Below are positions 3,221 through 62,427 of a stretch of 64,000 bases of DNA, piece after piece. How positions within the stretch are numbered: position 1 is the first letter of the stretch; each line of letters starts with the position of its first letter. The notes under the pieces were generated by a model. It saw only the letters and a list, made by a program, of their open reading frames with translations, was not told where the DNA came from and did not search any database. Source of the stretch: Marchantia polymorpha subsp. ruderalis (taxonomy: Eukaryota > Streptophyta > Marchantiopsida > Marchantiales > Marchantiaceae); NCBI GenBank assembly GCA_037833965.1, contig AP031356.1:25070501-25134500 (forward strand), given 5' to 3'. The translations under genes were made by a program, and so were the position numbers.

Positions 3221-6200
3221 TCATCGAACACGCCCTGTATCAGGAGGGGGACCTGAATGTTTCTCATCAGATTCTCTTTTCTTCTCTGGGTCCAATCTGC
3301 AGGGCAATACAAGCAGTCAGGTCAAATCCAGAACTTAAAAAGGAGATGTGAATGACAACCAGGTCAGAAAGGAGGGTACAATAACAACTGTATACAATCC
3401 TTTTCCCAAAATATTGTAACCACATCCTTGTGCTCCTCACAAGATTGCATTACCCAAGATAGTGAAGCTTCACGACGACGGCTTGGAAAACTGATGTATG
3501 ATTGTGACGCGGACAGGGAACAAAACCACGTTGTAGCAATCTACTTTGAATTTTAGTAAATATCAATGACTTGCTTGTATAGCTATAGAAGGCTTGTACT
3601 TGATTCTTGAATGAGCAATCTCAGGCTCTCTAAAGATACTCACTCATTCCGCAACCCAAGAACGAGCCGATGGACAGCTCCTGCGGCTGCGGATGCTGGC
3701 GCTACAGCAGCCGCAGGGGCAGCGCGTAGTGCACTAGCAACAGCCGGCCCTGCCCCACCGCGTTGATACAGCTTGTATGGATTTCCAACCAATGAAGAAG
3801 CTGTCCTCTCAAGTCCACGAGATATGCTTTCGCGGGCCTGTTGTATGCCTTCGCGTGTATCACCTGGCTGTACAGCCTTACTTCGCCGCTCCCCATTTTC
3901 GGCGGTAAATGTACACGGACTCAGCGTTCCACCGACTGCTAGTTCGGTTTGTTGTAGAAATTCATGTGCACCGGCAGCCAGATGCGCTCCAAGACCCAAA
4001 ACCTCCACTGATATACTTCGAAAGAAAGCCATAGCCCCTAAAGAAACACATATCTTTATTTTAGAAAACAACGACTTGCAAGATCTTTTAATCTGGTTTA
4101 CCATATTAACAAAGAAGTACTTCAACAACGATCTGGCACTGCCAGACAGTTGTTGAAGTATCCAAGAATTAGACAGTTAGAGTGTAACTCAATGCGCCTA
4201 AAACGCACAGTGAGGGTTCATGTCCAACTACAAAGAGCCTATTACACACGACATTTCTTGATGACTAGACACTCCAAACTTCAACAACTATCTAAATAAA
4301 AAAAGCTCAATGACAATTTTTCTACTGAAGCACAATAATACATTCTAGTGCTCGAGTTTTCCAAAAGTTGCAAAAAGGTACCTTTGCGCATCCCCAAGAG
4401 CAGACGACGATCTTTCTTGTAATGCTCAACTGGAAGCGCGACCAACTTTGCGGCACCAGAGCCCATTGCATAGAAGGGTCGTATTGGCGCCGCACCTTTG
4501 ACAAATTTGTGCACCTTCGGAATTAACGGAAGAAGGTCAAAATAATCTCTACGGAGATAGTGAAAAGCATATCAACAAAAATCACCCAAAAAAATGACAA
4601 CAAGAGCAAAGACATAATCTGCACACCTCCGAATAGAATCGCAATAACAAAATCGCAAATTCAGTGGAATGCAAGGTCATACGTATTCACTCCTATATTC
4701 TCAAGCAAAGACACAGGAACGTTCAAACAGCAAGTCGCTGTGCTGACTGACATGATATTGACCAATTCTTTCATCAATTGCGGAAGCTGACAACCCGCAG
4801 CGGGTAAAACATAGACACAGAAGGTGACTTCTGTCAACAAAAGCCCAATGTAAAGCTAAGTCGCATGAGCTCGCAGCAAGAAAAGCACAATCGATGACAC
4901 AGGACGTTTGCACAGCTTCGACTTGGACCTGATTTTGCGAGATATCTTCAAGCCATTCTCCCACCATCACACCAGAGAGACTACTCCAGCCGTGGACCCC
5001 TGTCGCTTTGACATGCTTAAGATTAAGCTCTATTCCCTGCAATACTCCACATCAAAAACCTTAATTCAGGTATTGCGTCACCTTTCTTATAAAAGTTATA
5101 TTATAAACCAAGAAAAACGCTTTACGATTGACCTACTCATGGTGGGTGAAGGAAAGAGAGAGGACCTTCCAAGATACAAAGTTCAAGAGCTCGGCATAGT
5201 TGCCCTTTCCTAACGAGCTGATATCAACTCGTCGAGGGACATAATCGACACGTATGGTCAATGGGCGCATCTCACAAATCTAATCTCGCACAAACACACA
5301 CCAAAGCACACGAGGTCAGTGCTCTCTCGTGCTCATTGCAAAATGCCAAATTGCTCCTCACAACAATTACTTCAGATTTGGGTAAAAACAGACCTGAAAA
5401 AAAGGAAGTAGTTCTTCGTCGGTCATTTCATTGATATCAGACGACACATCAGATGCAAGGTTTGACGTGGAATCGGATAGTGGATGGACTGCTTCATCTC
5501 TTGGGGTTACATCAGTTGTGCCAGATCGGTGTTGAGAAAAAAATTGTATACAGAAATCGATGTGTCGCTGGTCCAGATGCAGACTTATTGGGAGCAAGCT
5601 AATTAACAATCTGCAAATCATGCGCGAAATCAATACGAGTAAATTGAATATGAATTCATACTGAAAACTTTTCAAACATAACCCTTCATTCAAAATCAGA
5701 ACTTCTAACTAATGAGAACTATCATTACAGTGCACCCTTTCAAGAGCATATTAAATAAGTTTCAAGTATATCAAGTGGACTAGTCCATATGCCCTACTAG
5801 GCATGTAGTCACGAATATTCATTGTGAACGATTACGAAAGGTTATAAAATATATAGATGCATAGACTGGTATCTGCATACAAACTCCACTATCTTAGTCC
5901 TCTGAACATTCTAGGAGTTGAGATATGTCCATATACACACCTATATTCTTCCAGTGGGGCAGTAGGGTCCGGTCGAACTGCATCCATCTCGATTATAACT
6001 GCTTGCGCGGATGATTCCCGGGGACGACCTTTTGAACGATTGTAACTTACAACCTGAGGATCAAAAGATGACTCATTATGTACCGACACTGATGAGATCC
6101 TGTAAGCCACAAAATTCAAAGAAGGGCATATGCGACACGATATCTTCCATTCCACGTTATTTTACTCCTAATGGATAGCAAGCTGTGAGCGTGGTATTGC

Positions 6201-9200
6201 CATGTGTGAGCGTGACCCCTGGTAGAGGATTAAAGACCATAAGTTTCTCCATTTTAACACTGCTGGCCACATCTGACACCGCGAAGTGAAGGCAATCTCT
6301 TGAATAAGATCGTGCGATGACGTTAGTATTACAAACGACCAGAGCCAATGTGATGCATCTCTCGTGCCAATCTTCACATACTGCCTGATTGAAGACTTTG
6401 GTTACATATCTCTGGTTTGGATGCAAATTCCAGACGTAAATAGAAGGCTTGGAAGAAGGATGCTAGTGACGTTGAAATACTCACCGTCTTCCAAGGAGCA
6501 TCGTTGCTCTCATCATAAACGGCTATGTCCCGAACGGTGACGACAAGTCTCGACGCATAAAGTCCGACTGCCGGGAAGGTATCGTACTGAACTCTCATTT
6601 CGTTCAACAAAACCTCCAGACACACGTTTGACTGACGCCCATTTTCTTCTATGCCTGAATGATACATCGAATCCTTATCATACGTCCTACCTGTTGGCCA
6701 ATCAGAACCTCCATACAAGCGCCACTTCGCTTTGAGATCACTAAGCAGAACCCTCCCGACAGAATTAGGATACTTCTTAGGGAGACTCGGAGCTTTGTTA
6801 GGAGTTTGACCTTCCTTACTCGGATGTTCTCTTATAAATGCACCTTGTTGATCAGCATCCGAGCTAGGTCTCCCTTCAGAAACATGATTTTCCAGCACTT
6901 TCAAGACCTTTCCAGCGTACCATCCACCTCTTCCTTCCACCTCGCGTCCGCCCCCTGAACTGCTTGAGCCTCTCGATGGTCCACCTGATGGCCGTGGTGA
7001 TTCACCAGATTGCTTGGAAAACCCGTCCCCGAGTAGAGACCCTTGTTTTTGCAGGGTAATGTAATAGTCCTCTATGAACTTCGGGGGGCCGGCGTTATTT
7101 AACACAGGGGGTTCCTCAAGAACATCTTGCTGATTCTCTGAAGTTGGAGTAGAAGGTGAACTTCTCTTAGGTTCGTATGCATCTTGTCTTCTGTCGATAG
7201 AATCATTTCTATCCATAGAGCCCACTCGACTATGAAGTAAACTATAGGCACCACTGGAGAGCTGATCATCTCCTCCTGCAACAGAAGAAGGTGAACTTTT
7301 TACACGTGAGAAGGCATCTTCCAAAACCCCTTCAAAGAGATTGATTTCACTGAAATTCTCGTTGACACTGTTATCCATTTCACCGGAAGCTCCTATCCTG
7401 ATGGTCCTGGTACTGGGACTACCAGAGCTGGATCCCCTTCGATCTATGTTGTTGTTGTGCAGATTTACGCTTGTAGGGTCGATTTCTGGGGCGAACAGTT
7501 GTTGAAGTTGAGCAACAAGGCGACCGAACGCTGCTGTTGTATCATGACAGGTTTCAAAATGTAACTGAGAGTTGGCACACTCTACTTCCCACTGACGCCC
7601 GTCCTCACAGTTGATCCTCACTAAAGCCTCCATGACCGCTTCTTTGGCAATCTGCTTCCACAAAATATTATCTGTCAGGATATCAGAACATATGGATAGA
7701 GTCTAATTAAAATTGAAGACTGACCTCGCAAAGCCTGCATTTACAGATAAAACAAACGATTTGAAAAAGAAAGAAGGTTAATGTTAACCTGCACATATCC
7801 TGTACGCTTCATGGAGGCGGTAGTGTAATCTGATGTCAAGTGCTTCCTCAAAGTTGTATCCAGTAAGTGAAGTGCCACATCTCTGAGCCATATATCGAAT
7901 TGCTCACCCTTCGCTTGAGGAACTGCACTGCTTGATACTCTTAGAGCTGCAGCTGCTAGAACACATGCTACTGGTGCATGCATTTGTGATGACTCAAGCG
8001 ACGAGCCGGCACCTCGTCTAAGTGGATCTATTTCTGCTCTTAAGCCTGGACCGATCATTGCCTCGGAACCAGGCTCATAGCACAATGCTGCATCTTGAAA
8101 GTCGAGGAGAAAAAAGAGGTGGGAAGTGGAAGATGAGACACTTTGATCATCCGTAGATTTGTATTCAGCCGTTCCAGCAGACAAAGAATCAGTGCAAGCA
8201 TCTTCCAAGTCTTGGTTGTTCTCAGCGGGGTTCAAAAAAGAAGAGACAGCTAGCAGCCAGTCGAGACGACCACCATGGGCTACGAAAGTGCATCCACGAA
8301 TGGTTCCAGTAAATATAGCACTACCCAAAAGTTCGTCAGCAGGTTCTTGATCAGGCCATACCATATAGGTAAGGGACAATCCTGATGTCCCTGCAGCTAA
8401 GGCATTGCCCCCTCCTCCGTCACCTCGACCTAGTGCTTTGTTTCTGCAAGACAAAAGCAGCACCTCTGATTTTTCATCGGCACCCATAGTGCTATCTTCC
8501 CGATACGAACCAGTGACCTGACCTTCTTCATGATGAACCCATAAGTAAGAGATTTCAGAAACTCCCTCAATTCCAGTCACACAGAGCACCTGAAGCTTCT
8601 CAATGTCGAAGTTGATGACCTCCCAAGGTTTTGGACAATGGATGGAGGTAAGACCCAAAGACTGAGGTGGAAGACACATGTCAACATCGACTTTACCACA
8701 TTGAAGAAGCACACAGATCTGAGGTCTATTAACCGTTTGCAAGTCGGTATGACGTTCGGTGGTATTAGCAAGATTTCTGGATTCCCCAGAACTCTTCTCT
8801 TCACTATCTCCTACGAGTGATTCTGTAAACCGTTTCAAAAGCTCCAACACCCGAGTATAGTGAGGTTCTGCAAGGTGCAGCTGCACTTGCGGGAATTGGA
8901 CTCGAACCACCAACGAAGAGCTAGATATAAGCTCCTTTCGGAGTTGTGAGTTCTGCTCTTCCACGACTTCTGCCGCAGTTGTGGCAGCAGCATATTCCGA
9001 ATTGCTTCCCCCTATGCCTCGGCCTCCATCAGCTTGTATTTGTTGAGCAGCTATCCCATCCCACGTCTTCTTAGCCAACCTGTTACCATCCTTCCCAGCG
9101 TAAAACCACTGGATCTCCACAGAGATACCTTGATCGGGTGGTCTGTCAAGAGTTGGTAACGCTCCCCAAATCGGATCATTATAAAAAACTGTGGATATCT

Positions 9201-12200
9201 CTTTCACAGAAAAAGGGGTAATATCACCTGGCATGGGCCTTTCTGATGGACTAATATCAGTTGATATCAAATTAGCTGCAATATCTTCAAAACGCAATAA
9301 TACAGAAAAACCCGCTCCACCAGTCACAGTCATGTGCTTCTCTTCGACATGTTTGTACACAAGCATAGGTTGGATCACTCCATTATTAAGGGGAGGGCCT
9401 CTTAAATCTAGTCCAATGAAGTCTTCTTGTATAACAGAGCAGAGAGACCGAGTGTCGGCGGGAAAGCAAACAATGACACGGATGCTTGATAAATAAACGT
9501 TCAGCGGGCAAGACATTCTCGGAACAGCATGTGTGTCCTCATTTGCTGCACTTTGTGGCTGATAACTCACGCCCTCTCTACACCCTCCATCCGTTCCATC
9601 TCTTGGCCCCGTCATATCTTGGATGTTCAAGTCGAGTGCAGCAGTCCTTTCACAACTAGCTGCAGATTCTTCATACCTCCGTAGAAGTGACTCAATCCTT
9701 TTCAACGTGCGCAAATCAAGCCAAAAAACCAAAGGCTGCAAGAAGCAGTGGACTTCAGTTAAGCTGAAACTCGTTTTGGACGTAGACTCAAGCGTCAAAG
9801 TTACACGTGCACCATATTCTGGTCCAGTATGTATTGCTACCAAACGTTTCCTCTCGAGGTTTCCTGGTAGAACATTCTTCTCGACCTGCTGTTGAGATCC
9901 ACCCACACTTTGTCTCCCCGCCTTCCAATCATCCGAGGTCCCCTTTTCGCAACTAGAAGTCGTACCTCCTACGGAAGAAGAGCCTAAAGTTGCGGGAAAT
10001 GGAGGTAGAGCAGTTTCTATAGATGCTTGCAAAGATCGCGTATGGTTGAGATATGATTCTCTATCATCTTGCCAACTTTGTGTCCCGGTCGTTTTCAAAC
10101 TTTCTCCAAGTTGTTCGACTTCAGAAATTTCCAAAGTCTTTATAGTTGTAGTGCAATCCACTTGATTTGGAGAAACCTGCAGAAAAAAGCACTCATACTA
10201 GGGTCAATCCTTGAACCTTCCCACCTAAACTACAACAGTTAACAAAGGATGAAACTTTGAATCAGGAGTTCGCATGCAAAGAAAAGTGACCCCATATATT
10301 ACCGTAAAAATACAATAAATTCACAATCGGCTGATACCCATTTCAGATAAAGAATAACGTCAAGATTTTAGCGGACTCCTTGGTACACCATAAGGCAATC
10401 TGGGCTACTACTATATGAAAAGACAATGGAATTAGATTACTACCGTCGCAACAAACTGAATGTCTGACAAGATGGCATCCAAATGCTCTTCAAAAGAGCC
10501 TCCCAAACTTGACGCACTCCTTGGCTCTGATGTATCCTCGGGGTGGAAGAAGTCATAATACAGTTGGAATGATACTCCAGCCAGTTTCGCCTTTATACTG
10601 TACTCCACTTGTTTGAAATTATCTGTGACTGGCGAGCAGAACGGTCAGAACCCATCTGCATTATCTTGACAAACGAATAATCATAAAAACATCCAGCAGC
10701 ACGCAAGCCCCATAATGGAACTGACGACTAGAGACGTACCAGGAGGAATTATTGTAGAGCCCGTTGCCAAGCTTGATGCAGCTGTAATTGCACTGAAAGC
10801 TGAGCGAGGCCAACTCCAGAGGCCACTAGCTTGACTTTGTTGGATGCTCCGAGTACCATCAAAGCACTCAAAAAATTCATCAACACTGAAATGTCCGAAT
10901 CATAAAAAACGACGAGTAAGCATGAAGCTCAAGCCTTTCTTCAATACAGACAGTGAATCCAGTAAGCAAATGTCATTCGGTATCCAGACACTGACATGGA
11001 CATCAACCAGGCACGTGAGGTTCAACAAGATTGCAAATTGGAAGAGTATAAAGTACTGGTTAAACCTCGCTGCCAAGTCTGCATCCCGTACTTCTACGTC
11101 CTTTCTTTGACCTTCACTTGCACCTGAGTACATCCAGTTCCAGGAAATGAACTTTGTAAAAGGTAATAATGACGAATTCGGCGGTGCTGCTTCTGACACT
11201 TGTCCACCATTGATAGGAAAGGGTTCAGCAAATGATCTGTAGATGTCCCTGCTCCTGTCTATGCTGGCAGCAACATAACCTCTGGTTTTGCTCAAGTCTC
11301 CAACACTCACCGCACCCTGAGTTGATGGACTCACAAATGGAAACGAATTGCCCTTATCCATATCTGTTTCCCCTACTGCTGTAAAAACCTGCACTAGACT
11401 GAAAAGCTGACGGATTTCATGCGGTGAGGCCTTCAACTTCACAGTGCCAATCATGATGTCCGCGTGGAACTTCGGTACATCGACTGTTCCGTCTTTCCAA
11501 GGCACACTAAGTTGAATGGTTCCAGTGATGCCATCAAGATCTCCATCGAGAATTTTTACAGGCTTGCGTAGAAATGAAGGCTGCGAGTGATCCATGGTTA
11601 TCGACTCTTCCTCTACATCCCTGGACACTTTAACCTTCAAAACATCTGCAACCTCAACAGTCGCACCTTCAAATTTGACAACTTTGACGAGCATATTTGG
11701 CTCTACTTCATTGGAACCTTTTCCGGTATCATCTACCTCAGGCGGCGCAGTTTCGACTCCATATTCCAGACGTGGAACTCGAACGACAAGAATACTATGA
11801 AATACTGAGGAGCGGTGAGAAGACTTGCGTCTGTCCTGCTCATGTTCACAGGTCCCATTCCCAGACGCCAAATTTTGTTCCTCAAAAACAATAACCAAAT
11901 TTGTTACTTTAACGCGCAAATTTAACAGTATTCTCTCTACCATCTGCGCAATCATCCTGACACCATCATCCACACCCAAGTATGCACCACCTCCTCCAGC
12001 ACTCTGACAATACCCGTCTCCATCTCCGCCCAGATAGTCCTGGCTATCAACAAATCTTACGGCTTCGATTCCAGATGCTGCAAGTGAATCATCTGCACCA
12101 TTTTGACTTGACGGGCGAGGAATCACGACCAGCTTCAAATCCTCCAACTCGATCATACAAGATTCATCCGTCAAGACTCTCAACGGGATCCTGGCCTTAA

Positions 12201-12753
12201 CACTGCCAACGATTCCTTCCTTGATAGCAACTGCTGCATACCCGAGCTGGACACGGAACGTACTCGGAAAATGAGAATTATGTAGAATGTACTCAACCAA
12301 ACCTTCACAAATCTTCAAATGGCATTTCAAAGAACAAGAACTACTCAGAACTGTAAACCCTACGTTCTACTACGAAAGGACGATCTCGTCGAGGTTCCTG
12401 ATCAGCGACAGAAAAGAAAGAAACAAACATTGTTCATAGGCGATTCTTAACTTTCCTGATATAATCCTACTTAAATTACGACGAGGGCAAGAAATATTGC
12501 CATAATGCTCTGTATCCTTCGAAGATCAAACACCTGTGAACATGTCACTGCAACCCTTGTCCCACGTCTGAGAATTCCCAGTTACCTGATCATTTAGATA
12601 GTCCGTGTTAAGGTGTAGGTCCTTGAGTACAATTGTGCCCAGTCCTAGCTGCACGTCAAGCTGATCCAAGTCTACCTCGCTTCTCAGCAACCGCCCTAAC
12701 AGGCGTTTGACGAAAAACTTGCAAACTCTCTTGAAGACCCATTGCGACCACAT
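3221..12753 (-). CDS. ATG2: Autophagy-related protein 2 (ATG2), complete 14-exon gene
   Basis: ATG2 is a rod-shaped bridge-type lipid-transfer protein that moves phospholipids from the ER to the growing phagophore, acting with ATG9 and ATG18/WIPI. Exons (minus strand): 12753-12586, 12246-11066, 10885-10740, 10628-10444, 10176-7789, 7734-7725, 7671-6485, 6053-5941, 5610-5394, 5279-5166, 5036-4929, 4514-4382, 4037-3644 and 3296-3221. They join to 6420 bases, or 2139 residues, a little longer than the roughly 1900 I recall for Arabidopsis ATG2. The chorein-like N-terminus has FKRVCKFF and [10 protein letters not shown]. The conserved C-terminal region has [39 protein letters not shown] and [15 protein letters not shown] Ser/Gly-rich, probably disordered insert lies near residues 1570-1610. 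An in-frame TAG upstream of the ATG fixes the start. All junctions are GT-AG. Confidence 0.93.
7725..7734 (-). other. 10-base micro-exon of ATG2
   Basis: The ATG2 frame between the exon ending at 7789 and the one starting at 7671 is joined only by this 10-base exon, which reads GCTTTGCGAG. It is preceded by CAG and followed by GTCAGT. Including it gives Tyr-Val-Gln then [16 protein letters not shown] in one open frame. Without it the phase does not match. It adds three codons plus one base. Confidence 0.75.
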
Positions 12754-17376: not shown

Positions 17377-19782
17377 ATGCCTGGCCAAGCACTTCCACCG
17401 CCTTGCACCTTTTTGAATGTGGGCCAGGTATGTCAGTTAAGTTATCGCAAGCTGACCACAATGAGGACGAATTCAACTTTGATTACTGGTGCCAGTTCTA
17501 CCAGGAATAAATTCTTAGGAAAGTTCTTTCGCTAGTGCGGAGAAACAAAAGGCCGGGCGTTTATTAGGGTTTTCTCATGAGAGAGTATATATTTTGGTGG
17601 TCTGTTGGACGAGTGTTAACATATATGAATGTCAAAAGTTTTCTAAGTGTGGATTCGCATCTCCCTCGCTTGATCCGGTATTCGCAGGCCTTCACTGGTA
17701 CACAGAATGTGTCCAGTGGACAGAAGGACGAGGCATGGAAAGTGAATGTTAGATTACAAGGATGTGACATACAAAAGGGTTACTTGTGTGGAAGCATGGA
17801 AGCTCTGAACGTCCCATCTGCCGAAACACCAGTTAATGTCCGAAACCTAAATGACCTTCTATTGTGTTTCTCCTCCTTCCACGATAGGTCCAGTTGGGCA
17901 AGCCTTTTGTTTCAAGAGGCAGCCTGTGTCTACATTATGGAGATTTCACATGTGATCCTATTGGTTCCAAGATCTAATATCCTCGAATCTCTGTAGCTCA
18001 TCCAGGTTTTCTTTTGTTGATATTTGGTTCATTTCTAGGTGTTGCTGTACTGCCTCGAGATTAATCGAGGTTTGTTTAGATTTTACAGTTGTATATAGCA
18101 ACAGGTTTCCTATAAATTATAGCGTGCTTACATAATTATTTGGCCTGAATTGAGAAGAGCATATTGTCAGAGCTGATCAGTATCCATAGATTTATTGTTC
18201 GTATCACAGCAGCCACCTTCTTTCTTAATATTTGTAAGTAGTCAGAATTATGAATTTAATCGATTCTCACCTGTAATTAAAGCGTTCTCCAGTTCCATCT
18301 GCCTTCGAGGTTACCTGATCAAAGTTGAGGGGTCTCACCAAACGCGGACGAGTGGCAGTTTTCAACATCATTTTTAGTAATTCCTGGAAATGCTGACGGA
18401 AGTCTGTAATGTGCAGGTGGTGACATTCTGGGAAGGTGAAATTGTGGATAACAAGAACTATACATTTTTCACCGGCCAGTGGGATGCGACGTAAGTCTTG
18501 ATTGGCTTGCCGAGAATTTCTTTCAGAAGTCGGATGTCTTGACCGACGATCCTTTCTTCTAGAGGCAAGCTAAGTCTGTACATATATACTTGTTCCTTAG
18601 CGTTAGGGATTTCCCTGTGGTAACTAAAGATCATCAAAATTGTACTTTCAGGCGGGACACGGATGTTAATCACTGGGACAAGTTCCCTTCCTTCGCTGCT
18701 CTGAAGGTACTAAAATTTTTCTATTATGTGACTTCCCGTTGATATGGGTGATTCGATTCTTTGATTATTTAGAAAATGGTGACGTTCAGGTGACTTGGCC
18801 AAAATAGAAAGGTGGGCATGGTAATGATGACGGTCAGCAATCTTTTTTGAGCGTGGTCGTAGGTTGCCTCTGAAATTTGAGCCTGAACATGATGTTCCAC
18901 GAAAACCACAGGAAGACGTAAAGAGAGATGGCGGTCGCTCCGTGGATCTGGCAAACTATCCATTCATGTTTATGGTAATGTCTTTGAATTGATAGTCATA
19001 TTCATGGCGTTTCGTAGCGTAGTATACACCTCGTTCATGAACTAAAGTGTTCAATGTGATATTGATGCACTGATCTTGTTTACTGTAGATCTGAGCAATC
19101 AAAGGAACTGTTCTTAATTGTCTTCTGTGAAGTGTTTTGCTTATAATTGTTTGTCGTCTGGTTGCCGCAGAGATGGAAAGAGAAGTTCTTTGTGAACGTT
19201 GGTACCGATTGTGGGTTGACAATTGCAGGGTTCTACTACGTGTGCTTTTCCAGGAGCAATGGCTCAGTCAATGGATTTTACTACGATCCAAACAGCAGGT
19301 ATGTAACTGAGCCATTAACTGCGTCTGACATGCTGCCCTGGTTGACATGAGTTAAATCGAATCTTGTTCATTTAGAAGTTCGAAGTCTTCAGCTAACTGA
19401 GCCTTGAGGATTCAAGGCGAGAATGGTAATGACTCGACGTGCTGCCGTAGAATTTTTACTCTGGAGAGTCGTGCAGAGCATAACACCGATTCTAGCTTTG
19501 GTTATTCTGCAATGCTAGTGTACTCCTCCTTTTCTTCTCCATCTGACGACACCAAAAAGGAGATAACAGTATATTTCGCATGATGTATAATTACACATCG
19601 TATAAAACCCGAGCTTTTTAGGCAGTGGGTATTTTTGCTCATCAGTATAATCGGGTGTTATACAAATGCCCCTTCTGAGGTTTAACTTTGAGTTATTCTG
19701 CAGTCCCTATCAGAAGCTTGAATTAATGGCAACAAATGAGGGGCGTAGTGGCTACAGCTTTGCTACCTATAAATTTCAATGA
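17377..19782 (+). CDS. GID4: GID4/Vid24-family substrate receptor of the GID/CTLH ubiquitin ligase
   Basis: GID4 binds substrates, classically those with an N-terminal proline degron, and presents them to the GID/CTLH E3 ligase for ubiquitination. Exons: 17377-17427, 17688-17831, 18417-18490, 18652-18706, 18912-18974, 19171-19298 and 19704-19782. They join to 594 bases, or 197 residues, near the size I recall for plant homologues. The beta-barrel Vid24 domain fills the protein: FTGTQNVSSGQKDEAWKV, GYLCGSMEALNVP, VTFWEGEIVD, FFTGQWDAT, LTIAGFYYVCFSR, GFYYDPNS and SPYQKLEL follow in order. It ends with a conserved-looking NEGRSGYSF tail. The start at 17377 (MPGQALPPP) is chosen because it matches plant homologues. 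The frame is also open upstream to 17242, but a probable 3' splice site (ATTGCAG) lies just before, at about 17330, so the upstream part is likely 5' UTR. Confidence 0.92.
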
Positions 19783-47581: not shown

Positions 47582-47809
47582 TTGGACGTAAATTGTGAGC
47601 TTGCCTTACTGCGAGACCTTGGGTGACTCGAGAATTGGCGGGAATTATCAAATCTCGTCGGCAAGATGGTGAGTGCCAATTTTCTTCACGCCCTTCTCTC
47701 CACATTGGTCTTCACCTTCACTTTACACCGTCACTCCTCTGTCGTTTCTTCATAAGTATTTCTTTACCCATCCCCCGTAGTAAGGCTCTGGACATCAGAC
47801 GTATCCACA

Positions 47810-47821
47810 ATGGGCATTTGA
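47810..47821 (+). promoter_or_regulatory. Minimal upstream ORF overlapping the main start
   Basis: The first ATG after the predicted 5' UTR acceptor (CCCGTAG ending at 47780) opens a three-codon frame, Met-Gly-Ile-stop. Its TGA overlaps the ATG of the main frame in the sequence TGATG. Ribosomes would have to leak past it or reinitiate. Whether it matters depends on the true transcript start. Confidence 0.45.
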
Positions 47822-50800
47822 TGTCATCGAAAGTCGGTTATCAAGTCAAAATCCGACCTGTTGGTGAAACTGTGAGTACACGAATGCTGCCTCACACAAT
47901 CTACAGAGTGTGTACGAGTTCTTGCTTTCTGCCACGGATTTTCACCTGAATCACGATTCGTAACATGTCACTTGGGAAGCAACCAAATACGAGCTTCGGT
48001 TGCCACCCTTAGTGTGTTTCGTCACTCAAATCCTTATCATATAGCTGGCAGGCACGTCAGTGTCTCTCACTGTATTCTGTGAGTCGTTCGTAAATTCTGA
48101 CCTGCCACTGATCTAAACTCCCTGCAACATCTGCTTGCCTGTGATATAGATGAATGGACAGCTCCCCCGATTGAGCTACTCCCAACTGTTTTCTTTCCAG
48201 GTTGCTCACAATCTTGTGGCTGCCCAGCAAGCGGGTGAAAGATACCATGTAAACATAAGCGCTTTCAAAGACCTTCTCAAGGTAATCTTGTGTCGTAAGA
48301 AAGCATCTTTGCATAGCACTAAGTCTGTTGCACGTCACGTACGATCCCCTATATTCAATCGGCATGAAGTTGTAGAAACGTTGAAACACCAATGAGTCTT
48401 TTCAGTGCCACACAGCTCGTATCCATCGCCTGCTCAAATCCGCTTTTCGGATGTTAATATCTTTCCAACTTTTGACTCTTGTCTACGGAATTCTTTGAAA
48501 ACCAAGTTTTTCTGCCAAATTGAGGAACATTGTCAGGTAGGTACTAAACTTCAGTATGAACTTTGTTCACAAATACACGCTCACGGAGTATACTTCATTC
48601 TGCAGTCCGATGAATTACCATGAGTATGAGTTCGTTGCTTGCATGAAATCACAAATGCCAGTACGGTGAAGTCTAGATTGATGACTAGGTTATTCTTACC
48701 AGCACTGCCCGCTTGTAATAAGATCGGTAAGATGCATCAAATACACGGCTGCCATTGGAGCTTTGTTACGTTTATAAGCTACAACAGTTACAGAGACGAA
48801 CTGACTCTCCAACCCATCTATGAAATCAGCATGTTTGATGTGTTGAAGTGTTTTGTTTTAAGATACTTAAGATAGATGTAGATCTTGGTGGTTCAGTGCA
48901 GAAAGGCGAGTGGAATAGGTCCATTTTGGAAGTTGACTTCACCAATGGCATGATTTTCTTGCAAGATAAAGATAAAATTATAGCGGTGAGGAACCTTTTT
49001 CCACGTATACACGAGATGTAGTTTAGAAATCACCTCAATCGCAGTAGTCAAATATTCCTGTTAAACACTGAACTAAGTGCGACAATGCTAATCGAATTCG
49101 TCTCCGTTCATACATTGTTCGCATCGTGCGCTTTCAAAGAAAGACTCTTGTGCTTGTTTATGTTAATGTAACGACAAATTAACAAAACTTTTGAATGGGC
49201 TGAAAGGAGTCCTCAACTTCAGAAACGAAGTCTAAAGCCTTTTTGAAAAGTAACCATGGCTAAATTATTGCTCGAGCAGGCTCAACCTTTCTCTGACTTC
49301 AAGAAGTTCGTTGTTTCTGGAGAGGAGTTTGAGGATAATCTTGTGTCCATACGATTCACGTGAGTCCTCGGTCTCTGATGTATTATTCCCACTCTGTGAA
49401 TGGAGTTTCATGCCCTTGTGACTATAAGTAACTCTATTTTTCCTAAGACCACCTAGAGCTTCAATTATTCTTATCTTCTCTGACAGCCTTTCCTGATCGT
49501 GGAGACTATTGAGGAATTGTATTCTACAGCTGTGTAGGTTACTGTATCCATTACCGATGTTGTTGTTTAAAATGTTTTCTTGCGACCAGCGTTAGATGCC
49601 CTCGTATTCGAGTAGAAGTTTGCAGTTTCTTCAATACAAATTGTAAGCCTTTTTTGTCAGGATCTGGTCCACGGTCAGGATGTATTTCAAATGGTCTCAG
49701 TGATAGTTACAGAACTAAAACGTCATCGACGCCTACACCACAAACCGATTTTTGAGTTTCTTTGAAAAAAATCTGAAGATTTGATGTAAAAGGTTGTAAG
49801 TTATCTTACCACAGATAAAGAACTCATTGTTACCTCTGAGTCAAGCTTGCATTCAGGAAAATGTCTAATTATCGATTTCTAGGACCGCCCAGACTGGGCT
49901 CATAACATATGATATTTATCCTATATTTTGAGCGAAACCCAGTTACGATTTTAAGAGCCGCACCGTCTTTGCAGCTGGGTTTTACTTGTCACAAACTGAT
50001 GAGTTCGTAGTACATGTTGTACGATGTTAATTATTGATTTCAAAACGTGCATAAACTAGTCACTAAACACCCCAGTAAAACACTGATGCGTCCGCTTGGT
50101 CATCTTCCAACTTAACAATTTCTGTTGACTGTTACAGTGGACAGCAGTGGCAAATAATGACTCAAAATTCTGCTGAGAAGGCTTGTCTTTTGCACCTTCT
50201 CCAGGTGGGAAACGATTGTAAGTAAGATAGGACATATTTCAAATGCTTGAGCAACACAAAGAATGAAAACGACCAGATCAGATTAACGAGTCTATTGAGC
50301 ATCTTTACCTCAGTTACTTGTAGAACATCAACCTAAGAGCTTCGTTCATGACGATGATAAAGAAACCAAATTGCCAGATTTTGTGGATTTTTCAGTGCGT
50401 CTCAAAGGATACATCAGCTGAAGAGGCCCTCACATCAGCCAATCCTGGAACATTGGGTCTGGTGGGAACCTCGTCCAATCTATGTGTATCAGTTTTCAAG
50501 TACATAATGAAATATGCACATGTGGGAAGAGTAGGGAAATCAGACAAAAAGAGCAAACTGGGAGGTAAGCAATGTGAACTGCAGCGATCATGTATTCTAG
50601 TCATCGGATCATTGTGATTGTCATAGGGCTTAATCCGAAGCTCCTGTATGAAGCAACAGACTTATCTGCTAGGTAGGCGCTAGTTCTCAGTCCATGTGGG
50701 CTGAAGGACTGCAAGAATTAGGCAAACCATGATATTTAAGCAAAGGTTTTTGATAGGTCAAGATATCTGGAGAGGACTTTTCTGTTTACTTTGTTAGATT

Positions 50801-53800
50801 TGCAACTTTCTTGTTCTAAGAACCTCACTGGAAAACTACCTTCTTATGTCTTTAATGCAGAACAAAAGCGTTCTTAGAGCAGGCATCTTGATCCGCAAGG
50901 CGAGAACCCAGTTTAAAAAGGATGAACGCTACTGTGTACTTGTTCCCGGAAAGCTTTTCATGTTCAAGGTTACAAACCACTTTCGGAAATAAAATACCAG
51001 TTGATGTACCAACACGTTGTACATGTATTTGGCGCTTTCTACTTGAATCTGGATTATAAGTTATTAGTCGTGTTCAAGCTGCGAGTGCATTTTACGGTGA
51101 TGTACGATAAATAAAACATCAACTCTACTTCAGTCTGTACAATCTGGAGTTGCTACAGTGTAGAGATTCTCTGAACATGGCTCAACACCATGCTTGGAAG
51201 AATTGGTGGCTCACATCTGCAGCGTTGTCTTTCTCTCTCACATGTTCTTTGTTCTCTGCATTCTTCGCCATGTCGTGTTTGGGTCGTGTTCTGGTACCTA
51301 GTTATGTCCTAATGGACATGAATATCAATCAAGATCTGGATCTTATTTGTTCTTCTAGTTGAGCTTATTACTATTGTTTTCAGATGTGTGTGCTGTATGA
51401 CGGCTCTGAGCAGTGAACCAGATGGCTTTTAAATATACCCGGGATCTATACTTACCCTTCTGGTTCTTGATTGCAGAATCCTAACCTTCCCGGTCAGCAT
51501 GTACGATATGTCACTTCTCTTATGGGAGCAAGTGTTCGAGTGAGTCCATCGCTCCCCGTTGGTGGCTCTTTCAAATCCGAATGTGTTGTGTGAATATAAT
51601 GCTCGTCTTCGTATTATATGCACAGTAATGGCACTCAGAAAACTAATGATAAATGAACCCTCTTTTCGACTTCGTTCCTCGGGACTAACCACATTGAGAG
51701 TTGTGAAACGATTATCGTTCTACATAACGGCAAAGCACAAGTCATTGAATGTCATGAATTAATTTGAGCTGTAGGCAACTAATTAAGTCTATAATCAGTT
51801 GGGTGAGGTAGACAAGCAACATCGGACGCGTGCTGAACATATATTTCGGGTGATACTTTTGTCCACATTATTCAGATATTTCTTTAGCAAGTTATTAGAT
51901 GCCTAGAGTGCTCGAGCAGATACAGTAATTAAAGTTTACTGTCAGTATGAAATGTATATGCTCATGCAAACAGATGCTGCGAGGACTTGAGTTTGAGCTC
52001 TTGGTCCCTGGAACGAAGACTCTCAGCTTCATCCCGGAGAATGTGGTACATGGTCTCATAAGAAGGGGATTTGAAATTGAAATTGTTTTGGAAACTTGTT
52101 GAAAGCTAGATGTGCCTACTTTTTAGGCATCGAAGTCTTTCCATAGTTCTATTCGTATGACAAACGTAGCTTTTTCTGGGACAAGACTTCAGCCAGAAGT
52201 TGGAGCTTGGGTTTCATCTGATCAGAGATTGGTAATTGAGAGATTCTGGACACTACTACAATCTATTAGATCCTCTTATAAAACTTTCTTTCAAGACGAT
52301 CATAAGCTTTTGCAGGACTATGTACTTTCAAGAATTTCCACCAAAAGCACTTTTTCATTGTAGGATATGCACTTACTGCAAACAAGGTTCACAAGTCATT
52401 TTCCACTCTCAGAAGGCATAATATCAATGTGTCAGAGATGAATGAACAAGTCTGTCTTGTTTTGTCTAATTCGTCCTATCTGACTTGCAAGTGTCGTCCT
52501 ATTTTTAACATGTGCCTCAATATGCTTGCAGTCGAACAGACAGTCAAGAGTATCTAGTTGTATAAACCCCACATTAGACAAGGTCCTACACCGAACACAT
52601 ATATCTATGGAACACGGTATGAACTCTGCAGGAAGAAGCAACGGGATGGATGGGAGCTTTGGAAAGGTCAGTGGAGATAGCACAGCAACTGTTAGCGGGT
52701 CAACCTTACGAACAGCCTGATCAAAATGCTTCCAACATGTATCCGGGCATGAATCCAGGCATGAATGCAGGCATGATGCCAGGAATGTCAGGCGGCGGTG
52801 GAGGCTTTATACAGAGTTCTAATCAAAACTTTGGTGCTTACACCAATCCACAGGATTCCAGAAACCTGCAACAACGCATTATGGGAGGTATGGGCGGTGG
52901 GTTTTATCAAAGTTCCAGTCAAGGCAAACCCCTTCTTGGTGTTACCACCCACGTGAGCAATTCGACCCCATTTGGTGTAACTGCGCCATATACAGGAAAT
53001 TTTCAGGCTGCTATGGGTCAGGGGGGTGGAAACTTTCAAAACTCCAATAACCAGCCTCAAGGTAATGTGGGTTTTCAGAGGTCTCCAGGGATGCTTCAGC
53101 AACTCGGACCATCCACGAGTATGCAAGGGCAAGGTGGGGTCATGGGCCAGAACATTGCAGGACCAAGTACTTCGTACAACCAGCCTCAGGGAAATTTTAA
53201 TGTTCAAACTGCTTACAATACTGGAATGACACAAGGAGCCGGTCAGGGACTCCAGCAAGGTTGGAGTCAAGGTCAGCAGGTTAGTCACACCCTGTAGCAA
53301 CTAACTTGACCATTTTATCATATTCCTTACCAATGCAAGTGATGAAAGAAGACCATATCACCACTACATATGCGAATCTGAATCGAATATTTCTTGATCG
53401 CTTTCTTCAGAAGCATGTATCCTATCCACAACGAACATTTCATACTGCTCGTCACCAAGATCTTAGCTTTATTCTTGAAGCCACTTACATGATTTTCTTG
53501 AGCATGGTCGTTTCTATGTACTTCTCTTGTTGTAAATATTTTTCTGTTGCCTCATCTTCACTTCTCGGTCTGGTGTGTAGAATCAAAATGTTCCACCTGG
53601 TGAAACTGGGGTGAGAATGATTCGAAGAGCTACCCAGACATTGAGAGAATTCAACAACAACATGGATCAGTTTCTGGCAACACCCTCAAGTCCTGGTTAC
53701 AGCGGTGCAGCGCCACAATCACAGAACTCTGGATATGGTGGGGCTTCTCCCCAAGCACAAGGTCCTGGGTATGGTAGGGGAGCTCCTCAAACACAGTTTC

Positions 53801-54827
53801 AAGGGTATGGCGGTCCTCAACAAGCACAAGGTCCAGGGTATGGTAGGGGTGCTCCTCAAGCGCAGGTTCAAGGTTATGGTAGAGGAGGCCCTCAAGCCCA
53901 AAATCAAGGTTTTGTTGGTGCTCAACAGGGACAAGTTCAGGGGTATGGTGGCGGAGCTCCCCAAGCACAGAATCAAGGTTTTGGTGGTGCTCAACAAGCT
54001 CCAGCGTTTGGGGGTGGAGCTCCTCAGATGCAGGCTCCAGGATACGGACGCGGAGTCCCCCAGATGCAGAGTCCAGGATATGGACGTGGAGCTCCACAGA
54101 TGCAGAATCCAGGATATGGACGATCAAACCCCATGGTTCCTAATCAAGGACCACGCCTTCAACAGCAGTTTCAAGGACCGCAGCCAGTAAGTATTGGTTT
54201 GTCGACAAAGACGAAGTGAATGCTTTATGATCATGGACGGTTAGCAAGGTTATCCATAAAGAACCATGTTCATTCGTTTCGCTATGTGGATTATGAGTTT
54301 TCATTTGTTTACTAAATTCTTCCGGGTTGTTTTTGGACGCCAGGGAATTTCACCAGCTTCGACTTCTGCTGAGTGGAGAGAATTTACCTCTCCAGATGGC
54401 AGGACGTAAGGATCCCTCTATCAGAATCCTGGCTGTGGATAGCAGAGAATGCCACAAAACGCCGATATTAGATTCCCCATGACCTGCTTTAATACAACCA
54501 TGCAATATTTTTTCTCGTGTTTATATCGTTTGAAGACTGGTTTCGAGCTTTGAATCACACATATTCACGTCTTTCTATTGTTCAATCAAACTTACGGAAG
54601 GCAGCATTCACTATGTGGTCAAGTCTTCCTCCTAAGCTTGATGAAAGTTCTCACTCATCGAGGCGATTGAATTTTTTTTGTAAGGTCAATGCTTGTCTGT
54701 TATCTAGCCTGTATGCACTTCGAGCATCGATCGATTTTTGTGTTAGCATCTAAATTATGTTCAAAATCAATGCAGGTACTATTATAATGAAAGCACGAAA
54801 CAAACAACCTGGACGAGACCCTATTGA
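47821..54827 (+). CDS. PH-domain protein with Gly/Gln-rich repeats and C-terminal WW domain
   Basis: Exons: 47821-47871, 48201-48281, 48902-48985, 49280-49359, 50138-50204, 50396-50564, 50627-50672, 50869-50968, 51477-51539, 51974-52045, 52632-53279, 53581-54186, 54344-54405 and 54776-54827. They join to 2181 bases, or 726 residues. Residues 1-125 look PH-like (VSIRFTGQQWQIMTQNSAEKA). Residues 193-285 look like a PH domain: VLRAGILIRKARTQFKKDER, YCVLVPGKLFMFK, GLEFELLVPGTKTLSF and a C-terminal helix with ATGWMGALERSVEIA. Residues 290-487 are Met/Gly/Asn/Gln-rich. A basic helix RMIRRATQTLREF precedes about 150 residues of GYGRGAPQ-type repeats. A complete WW domain (EWREFTSPDGRTYYYNES to TTWTRPY, tryptophans at 700 and 722) ends at the stop. 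PH suggests membrane or protein contact and WW suggests proline-motif binding. I know no named family with this order. The exon 8 acceptor (ACAAAAG) is chosen to keep the frame. Confidence 0.8.
53680..54150 (+). repeat. Coding tandem repeats, GYGRGAPQ type
   Basis: About a dozen imperfect units of 30 to 45 bases encode variants of GYGRGAPQAQ, GYGGGAPQAQ, GFGGAQQ and GYGRGAPQMQ. The last three units, reading PQMQ, are the most alike and look like the youngest duplications. The units give a low-complexity, prion-like segment rich in Gly, Gln, Tyr, Pro and Ala. Confidence 0.85.
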
Positions 54828-54975
54828 TCTCATGGAGACAGAGAAGAACATATCTTCAACACGAAGACCCTATTGATATCATGGAGAGAAAGAACAGATC
54901 AAAGAGTTGGTGATCATATCCACACCCTGTTGATCTCATGATCACCAACTCTTTGATCAGTTCTTCGTGTTGAAT
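54818..54975. repeat. Compound direct and inverted repeats at the 3' end of the PH/WW gene
   Basis: Three direct copies of a unit of about 21 bases starting ACCCTATTGAT occur at 54818-54838, 54867-54887 and 54924-54941; the first contains the stop codon. A 25-base inverted repeat, 54892-54916 versus 54939-54963, has one mismatch around a 22-base loop and carries GATCAAAGAGTTGGTGATCA. Outside it, 54853-54867 and 54962-54974 pair again (TTCAACACGAAGA). The transcript's 3' UTR could fold into a long two-part hairpin. Confidence 0.88.
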
Positions 54976-61198: not shown

Positions 61199-62427
61199 TC
61201 AACATCCATGTGAAATGTTCCGCCTTGCAGACAAATCTTTTGCAGTTTTACCTCCAGGTGTCATTAAATTTTGAAATTCTCTTGCGATCTCTTGTTTGAA
61301 GTACTCCAATGTTTCTAGAAAGTTGTCTTCAATTCCATCAAGGCTATGTAAAGCATGGTTAGCCACCGCAAGCTTCTCTTGTCTCGCAGGACCTGAAGGT
61401 GTCATAAGTGACCATCTATTGTGCACTTCGTCTAATGCCTCTTGCAACTACTCTGTTTTCTAGAAGTTGTCTCCTAAGATGATGCACATGTTATGTAACA
61501 CAAGGCAAGTACTCACCAACTCAAGCATGTTCTTTAGTTTCACATCAACTCTCTTTAACAATATTCGCCACCTACCCCTAAGCATTCCAAATGCTCGCTC
61601 AATGCACATACGAGTGGAACTCTGAACAAAGTTCCAGTTGTATTCCTCTCGAGTTAACCCGTCTTTGTGACCTCTGAAGGGAGCTAACATCCAAGGCCGG
61701 CATGGGTAGGCCGCATCTCCAACCAAAGCATAAGGCGCAAGCTTTTCAGCTTTGCAAAATTGGCCAATTGCAGTTCTTCCCCATAAGTTGGCGTCATGCA
61801 TGGATCCGCTCCATCCTATGTCAAAATTCCAAAATAGTCACTTGCTAGATACAACATCTTGCAATAGTATAGAGTGAAATCCCTTACGATTGTAATAATC
61901 AGCCGCATGTAGACTAGGTGTCACAATTTGTACGTGAGAATCATTTACTACACCAACCACAAACGGTATTCCATGAATATCTTCAAACTCTCCAGCAAAT
62001 TTCTCCATAGTGATGGTGGAAGACCACCAAATGAATTTCTTGAGAAGTAACAAATTCACAACATGAGTGAACTGATTAACAGCGTGTTGACTTGTTGATC
62101 GATCAATCCTATATAAATCCGCAATGCTTTGCATGGAGTTACCTGTGGTCAATCTTGAGATGGAGACCGCCACCTTCACTTGAATCGGTATAGTCGAGCG
62201 CAATGAAAGCGCAAGAGTGGAACACAAGAACTCAAAAGCGGAAAACACATCCATCCGCATGTGACTCTTGAACTCCCTCGGAGTGAATGATCTGAGTAAA
62301 TTTCAATCAAAAAATCCAAGTTCCCCCAACCTCTATCATGGGCCATGAACGTCAAGATCTTGTGACTCTCCCTAACATGAATCTTTGCACCATAATTGAT
62401 ATGGAATAGGTTTGTTGTCAGCTCCAC
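61199..62427 (-). pseudogene. Harbinger DDE transposase (HARBI1-like), broken
   Basis: The DDE_Tnp_4-type nuclease is recognisable across the region. The first acidic motif is VVNDSHVQI and is followed by YYNRKGFHS. The segment DIGWSGSMHDANLW leads to the second acid in VGDAAYPCRPW. EYNWNFVQSSTRMCIERAFG contains the glutamate, followed by LRGRWRIL. An N-terminal helical part (MRMDVFSAFEFLC) precedes. Four defects are visible: a frameshift near 62270 that separates the N-terminal part, an in-frame TGA at 61838-61840 between the first and second acidic motifs, and two TAG codons at 61460-61462 and 61448-61450 near the C-terminus. The catalytic residues themselves remain, but the protein cannot be made whole. 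Confidence 0.88.

Follow-up and report, generated by a model that had tools for sequence, protein, structure and literature searches.

A predicted plant gene joining a PH domain, long glycine- and glutamine-rich repeats and a PRP40-like WW domain

The window analysed here is a stretch of 64,000 nucleotides on contig 7 of a genome of 241.5 Mb in 9 contigs. The organism is taken to be a land plant, probably a liverwort of the Marchantia type, with nine chromosomes. A predicted gene on its forward strand raises the question of whether a single protein combines a PH domain, a long low-complexity region and a terminal WW domain and, if it does, what such a protein could do. The first-pass annotation of the window described this gene and knew of no named plant family with the same architecture. 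On this point it agrees with our searches of Pfam and of the open-licence literature, in which no protein with the same domain order was recognised, although this is weak evidence of absence. The association of a PH domain, long G/Q repeats and a PRP40-like WW domain is unusual.

Some known proteins bring together part of these elements. In WW-PLEKHA proteins (PLEKHA5/6/7), WW and PH domains occur in one protein, according to the accessible part of PMC8458771. These animal junction proteins have tandem WW domains, whereas the window protein has one C-terminal WW. In WW-PLEKHA proteins, the WW domains precede the PH domain, and the WW domain also comes first in Fe65 (APBB1) and in the WW-PH RhoGAPs, where WW and PH-fold domains are found together. 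To our knowledge, GYG-type repeats occur in none of them. No RhoGAP match was found in the Pfam-scanned parts of the window protein. A ciliary paper, PMC11190437, was set aside as not relevant to the window protein as far as its accessible part goes.

Gene model and coding evidence

The 14 predicted coding exons (Table 1) extend from 47821 to 54827 on the forward strand. Once rejoined through 13 GT-AG introns they remain in one open frame, as the first-pass annotation had proposed, and its statement that the WW domain ends exactly at the stop also holds, the stop codon lying directly after that domain. The length of the protein needs an adjustment. The 726 residues given earlier are exact if exon 3 starts at 48902, but the acceptor at 48863 is preferred because a T-rich tract precedes it and because the piece it adds, ILKIDVDLGGSVQ, has a coding score of +3.3 nats. 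With this acceptor, the predicted spliced protein has 739 residues. For exon 8, a start at 50869 is required, since with the acceptor at 50861 the frame is lost and 12 stops appear. At the 5' end, an optional ATG exon (47666-47668 joined to 47785-47871) would supply 13 extra in-frame residues.

Table 1. Predicted exons of the gene and adjoining features (positions in the window)
Feature	Positions	Strand	Remarks
Candidate start exon further upstream, ATG followed by gtgagt	47666..47668	+	Uncertain; neutral coding score
Exon 1, from the ATG of the first-pass annotation	47821..47871	+	
Exon 2	48201..48281	+	
Exon 3	48863..48985	+	Alternative acceptor 48902
Exon 4	49280..49359	+	
Exon 5	50138..50204	+	
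Exon 6	50396..50564	+	
Exon 7	50627..50672	+	46 nt
Exon 8	50869..50968	+	PH domain start
Exon 9	51477..51539	+	PH domain
Exon 10	51974..52045	+	PH domain
Exon 11	52632..53279	+	PH domain end, running on into the low-complexity region (first half); all four PGM motifs
Exon 12	53581..54186	+	Island at 53602-53679, likely helical, followed by repeats of the GYGRGAPQ type from about 53731 to 54122
Exon 13	54344..54405	+	Low-complexity end; WW domain, first half; phase 2 at the exon end
Exon 14	54776..54827	+	Remaining half of the WW domain, with the stop codon
Local repeats from the last codons and near-perfect hairpin	54816..54974	+	Presumed 3' UTR

The longest stop-free frames in the stretches with exons 11 and 12 have 224 and 212 residues, lengths that were reached in 1/1000 and 8/1000 first-order Markov shuffles of the 1000-base stretches, respectively. 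Using a codon score trained on the neighbouring long minus-strand frames (6374-12366), exons 11 and 12 reach +40.8 and +57.0 nats, exons 1-10 lie between +0.1 and +4.9 nats, exon 13 has +3.5 nats and exon 14 has -2.1 nats. An alternative frame outscores the frame used in exons 5, 6, and 10, where it contains stops, and in exon 14, where it is stop-free. Because their codon scores are weak, the N-terminal exons are supported less by codon bias than by their reading frame and splice sites. Likewise, in view of its score, exon 14 rests on a WW match that crosses its junction with exon 13.

The weak scores of exons 1-10 and the negative score of exon 14 would fit a wrong join or two neighbouring genes, one transcript holding the PH exons and another the repeat/WW exons. 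However, the end of the PH domain and the start of the repeats are carried by one exon, and the WW match runs from exon 13 into exon 14. Moreover, introns 11 and 12, with 301 and 157 nt, seem short for accommodating a transcript end and a promoter. Two separate transcripts are, in our opinion, most improbable. On its predicted model, a gene for a PH domain, G/Q repeats and a PRP40-like WW domain looks real and is believable.

When the genome was searched with the N-terminal 325 residues, all ten matches fell at the window gene. A search with the WW piece found the two exons that encode it and, more weakly, two other WW genes, and no second copy of the gene was found in its genome. Among viral and prokaryote contigs no relatives were confirmed, the 2 and 24 pattern matches having failed in tblastn, as expected for a plant gene.

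The PH domain and the low-complexity region

The PH domain recognised in the first-pass annotation corresponds to about residues 209-298, encoded by exons 8-11, and is marginally supported by sequence comparison. PF00169 gives 27.5 bits on a 121-residue piece and 24.6 bits on a 325-residue query, for a cut-off of 25.1. When two PH domains of the same genome are aligned and the region is compared with them by hhalign, the probability is 80%. The best PDB match, PLEKHA6, is not significant (E=0.16) and stands in a list that also contains unrelated proteins.

An additional PH-like segment had been proposed at the N-terminus. The corresponding residues, about 140 in number, have no Pfam match up to E=10, and hhalign rates their PH likeness at 0.1%. 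Against PDB sequences, a cytochrome P450-like chain is the only match (E=0.34 and 0.12) and was judged to be due to chance. A Chou-Fasman pass was too weak for use. The domain order described earlier stands for the PH domain, the low-complexity repeats and the terminal WW domain, but the N-terminal PH-like segment finds no sequence support.

In phosphoinositide-binding PH domains, a basic motif, K-Xn-[KR]-X-R, is found at the start of the domain. This motif bears on the membrane contact proposed in the first-pass annotation, and on a scaffold in which the PH domain would bind phosphoinositides, the repeats would condense on the membrane and the WW domain would recruit proline-rich clients. A point in favour of such a scaffold is that the protein has both the PH domain and the low-complexity repeats that it requires. 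Against it, K-Xn-[KR]-X-R is absent from residues 181-330, where only a looser R-initial form fits once, at residue 209, and the second PH-like domain is the one that finds no sequence support. From the absence of the motif, lipid binding by the PH domain appears doubtful, membrane contact loses its sequence argument and a membrane-condensate scaffold seems to us unlikely.

Between the PH and WW domains, where about 400 low-complexity residues had been noticed, 406 are counted (306-711), with 21.2% Gly and 17.5% Gln. In the second half, they are arranged in tandem units of about 11-12 residues. The two halves are separated by an island, ETGVRMIRRATQTLREFNNNMDQFLA, that is likely helical as judged by eye. 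Leaving it out, they contain 17 Tyr, 10 Arg, 3 acidic residues and 1 Lys. The island could also be a binding motif. The repeat units give a pN/pS of 0.27, which was set aside as evidence of selection because the 7 units were chosen by peptide pattern, divergent units being left out.

The low-complexity region may also be considered as a ligand for the WW domain of the same protein. It had been remarked that the repeats contain no obvious PPxY. Indeed, PPxY, PPLP, and PPPP are all absent from the whole predicted protein, which has a single PP, and self-binding via PPxY or PPLP is thereby ruled out. Four PGM motifs are present, at residues 322, 326, 334, and 436; three of them cluster at 52743-52787, early in the low-complexity region, in a 12-nt tandem repeat. 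A review table (PMC8409303, accessible part) counts PGM among the ligands of WW domains, and self-binding via these motifs is possible. They are nevertheless a weaker candidate than PPLP/polyproline ligands and are likely due to chance in a tract rich in P, G, and M.

The WW domain, its expected ligands and its intron

The WW domain is the strongest domain of the predicted protein. It scores 45 bits with PF00397, for a cut-off of 26.9, and has two Trp and the final Pro, which confirms the C-terminal WW of the first-pass annotation. Its best PDB relative is PRPF40A (E=2.4e-16), at the head of 52 sequences with an E-value no higher than 0.01. Over 27 residues, it shares 18 with WW1 of human PRPF40A, and 17 and 14, respectively, with WW2 and WW1 of the PRP40A/B-type gene of the same genome, in an identity table that left out the WW rows L002 and L004 for their differing lengths. 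As judged from these comparisons, the window WW is PRP40-like.

The genome scan gave 15 WW rows, one of which is the second half of the WW domain of the window gene. Two others, on contig C3, belong to the PRP40A/B-type gene, which carries FF domains. Both WW domains of this gene are interrupted by a predicted intron located just before Y-Y-[YH]-N, after the second base of the codon (AG|G, AA|G). The predicted junction of the window gene (AC|G) is at the same place, with the same codon and phase. Furthermore, the window gene has a phase-0 start for the exon preceding the cut, and so, as read by eye, does PRP40 WW1. In the remaining 12 of the 15 rows the frame is open across this place, with the proviso that for L007, L009, and L004 the frame in view starts only a few residues upstream of it; L007 has an apparent intron, also read by eye, about three codons earlier.

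The common codon and phase suggest that the window gene and the splicing factor share a WW module, a point that identity alone does not settle. In a search of the genome with the whole WW domain, the best match beyond the gene itself is a WW domain on contig C8, with 52% identity over 25 residues, the search being blind to a complete PRP40A/B WW because an intron splits it. Over 22 residues, the window WW shares 12 with the C8 WW, 12 with WW1 of the PRP40A/B-type gene and 14 with WW2. Thus, the case from identity is weakened by the C8 WW, which is as close as WW1, and the intron becomes a better argument for PRP40 than identity. The C8 WW (L010, G000:C8:19302335-19302400, minus strand) is tyrosine-rich (EWTEHTSPEGYKYYYN...) and is preceded by a Pro-rich stretch.

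The common intron could instead date far back in a subclass of WW domains, in which case it would not be the trace of a transfer from PRP40A/B. This explanation gains from the fact that the comparison covers one genome and that the C8 WW, about as close in sequence as WW1, has no intron at the PRP40A/B place. It is opposed by the 12 rows that read through this place, including two of an FF-bearing gene on contig C6. A domain of 27 residues gives little ground for tracing ancestry. We regard an old intron as a credible possibility, if short of probable.

Several features of the window WW are those of PRP40 and of PRPF40A (FBP11), namely its sequence, its ligand-contact aromatics as aligned by eye, and, as compared within this genome, the place and phase of its intron. 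The overall organisation is different. PRP40 has two N-terminal WW domains followed by FF domains (PMC6700278, accessible part), whereas the window protein has a single C-terminal WW without tandem partner, a PH domain and no FF domain found. In the genome, all ten FF matches are on C3 and C6, and none is on the contig of the window, C7.

As to the ligands, WW1 of PRPF40A contacts a PPLP-containing ligand via His149, Tyr157, Tyr159, and Trp168 (PMC11079029, in its accessible part). In an alignment made by eye, these positions correspond to Phe, Tyr, Tyr, and Trp in the window protein. Because the WW is PRP40-like and has the common intron, PPLP or polyproline ligands are expected; our best guess is that they would be bound rather than PPxY. 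The likely SF1 of the genome, identified by an SF1-HH match of 105.4 bits, contains one PPLP and three PPPP in 848 residues of a 1025-residue frame, and a PPLP in such a Pro-rich protein can be chance.

A nuclear function is conceivable from these data. As a splicing or transcription adaptor, the protein would use its PRP40-like WW to touch SF1 or the tail of RNA polymerase II, thereby competing with PRP40 or assisting it. The likeness of the WW, the intron in common with a PRP40A/B-type gene and the PPLP of the likely SF1 argue in this direction, as does the binding of Arabidopsis PRP40s to the Pol II tail, via the WW domains for AtPRP40B (PMC6700278, same part). The distribution of FF matches and the lone WW argue against it, and we find a nuclear adaptor improbable.

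A tentative function and the surroundings of the gene

The explanation that we favor, tentatively and as one that comes near to being probable, is that this single-copy gene encodes an adaptor made of a PH docking fold, a possibly self-associating linker and a probably PRP40-derived WW domain for PPLP/polyproline partners. The PH domain would serve for docking, more likely onto a protein, or weakly onto lipid, than onto a specific phosphoinositide. The G/Q/N-rich region, with its Tyr and Arg residues, would provide a flexible linker and may self-associate, while the C-terminal WW would recruit partners bearing PPLP or polyproline. The two WW exons probably came together, as one module, from a PRP40A/B-type gene. 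The docking role, the self-association, the ligand class and the direction of the WW transfer are those we infer from the predicted protein. The PRP40 link adds to the earlier reading of the locus, and the mechanism attached to it is inferential.

A bolder version can be imagined, in which exon shuffling moved the WW of a splicing factor onto a PH/prion-like scaffold, and a condensate gathers SF1-type (PPLP) or Pol II partners away from the U1 snRNP and perhaps on a membrane; we hold it to be decidedly unlikely. Returning to the adaptor, if its WW comes from PRP40, the gene would offer a traceable case of exon shuffling, from a spliceosomal ligand-binding module to a PH and low-complexity scaffold, in an apparent early-branching land plant. 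It would also predict that the window protein and PRP40 have PPLP/polyproline ligands in common. If the WW does not come from PRP40, the protein would be an ordinary uncharacterised multidomain adaptor.

Immediately downstream, the local repeats listed in Table 1 comprise three diverged 30-nt units that start in the last codons, the third being 67% like the first. The hairpin has 28-nt arms that are 96% complementary, together with 13-nt perfect outer arms, and its fold has a z-score of -4.89. A mobile-element origin finds no support, the genome search having found only the two strands of the hairpin itself. Repeats and hairpin are probably outside the function of the protein, and the hairpin could be a young small-RNA hairpin.

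Other features are visible in the window. On the minus strand, a frame at 61838-62302, read by eye, resembles a Harbinger-type transposase, for which Pfam gives no support. At 17568-17996 on the forward strand, a Vacuolar import and degradation (Vid24-like) match reaches 26.6 bits, under the cut-off of 27. Finally, the region 3640-12366 of the minus strand is, from its Pfam matches, a probable ATG2 autophagy gene. Its end, at 3640-4176, is the only part over the Pfam cut-off (83.8 bits for a cut-off of 50). The long frames at 7741-12366 match ATG2 and VPS13 only below the threshold, but appear to belong to this gene.
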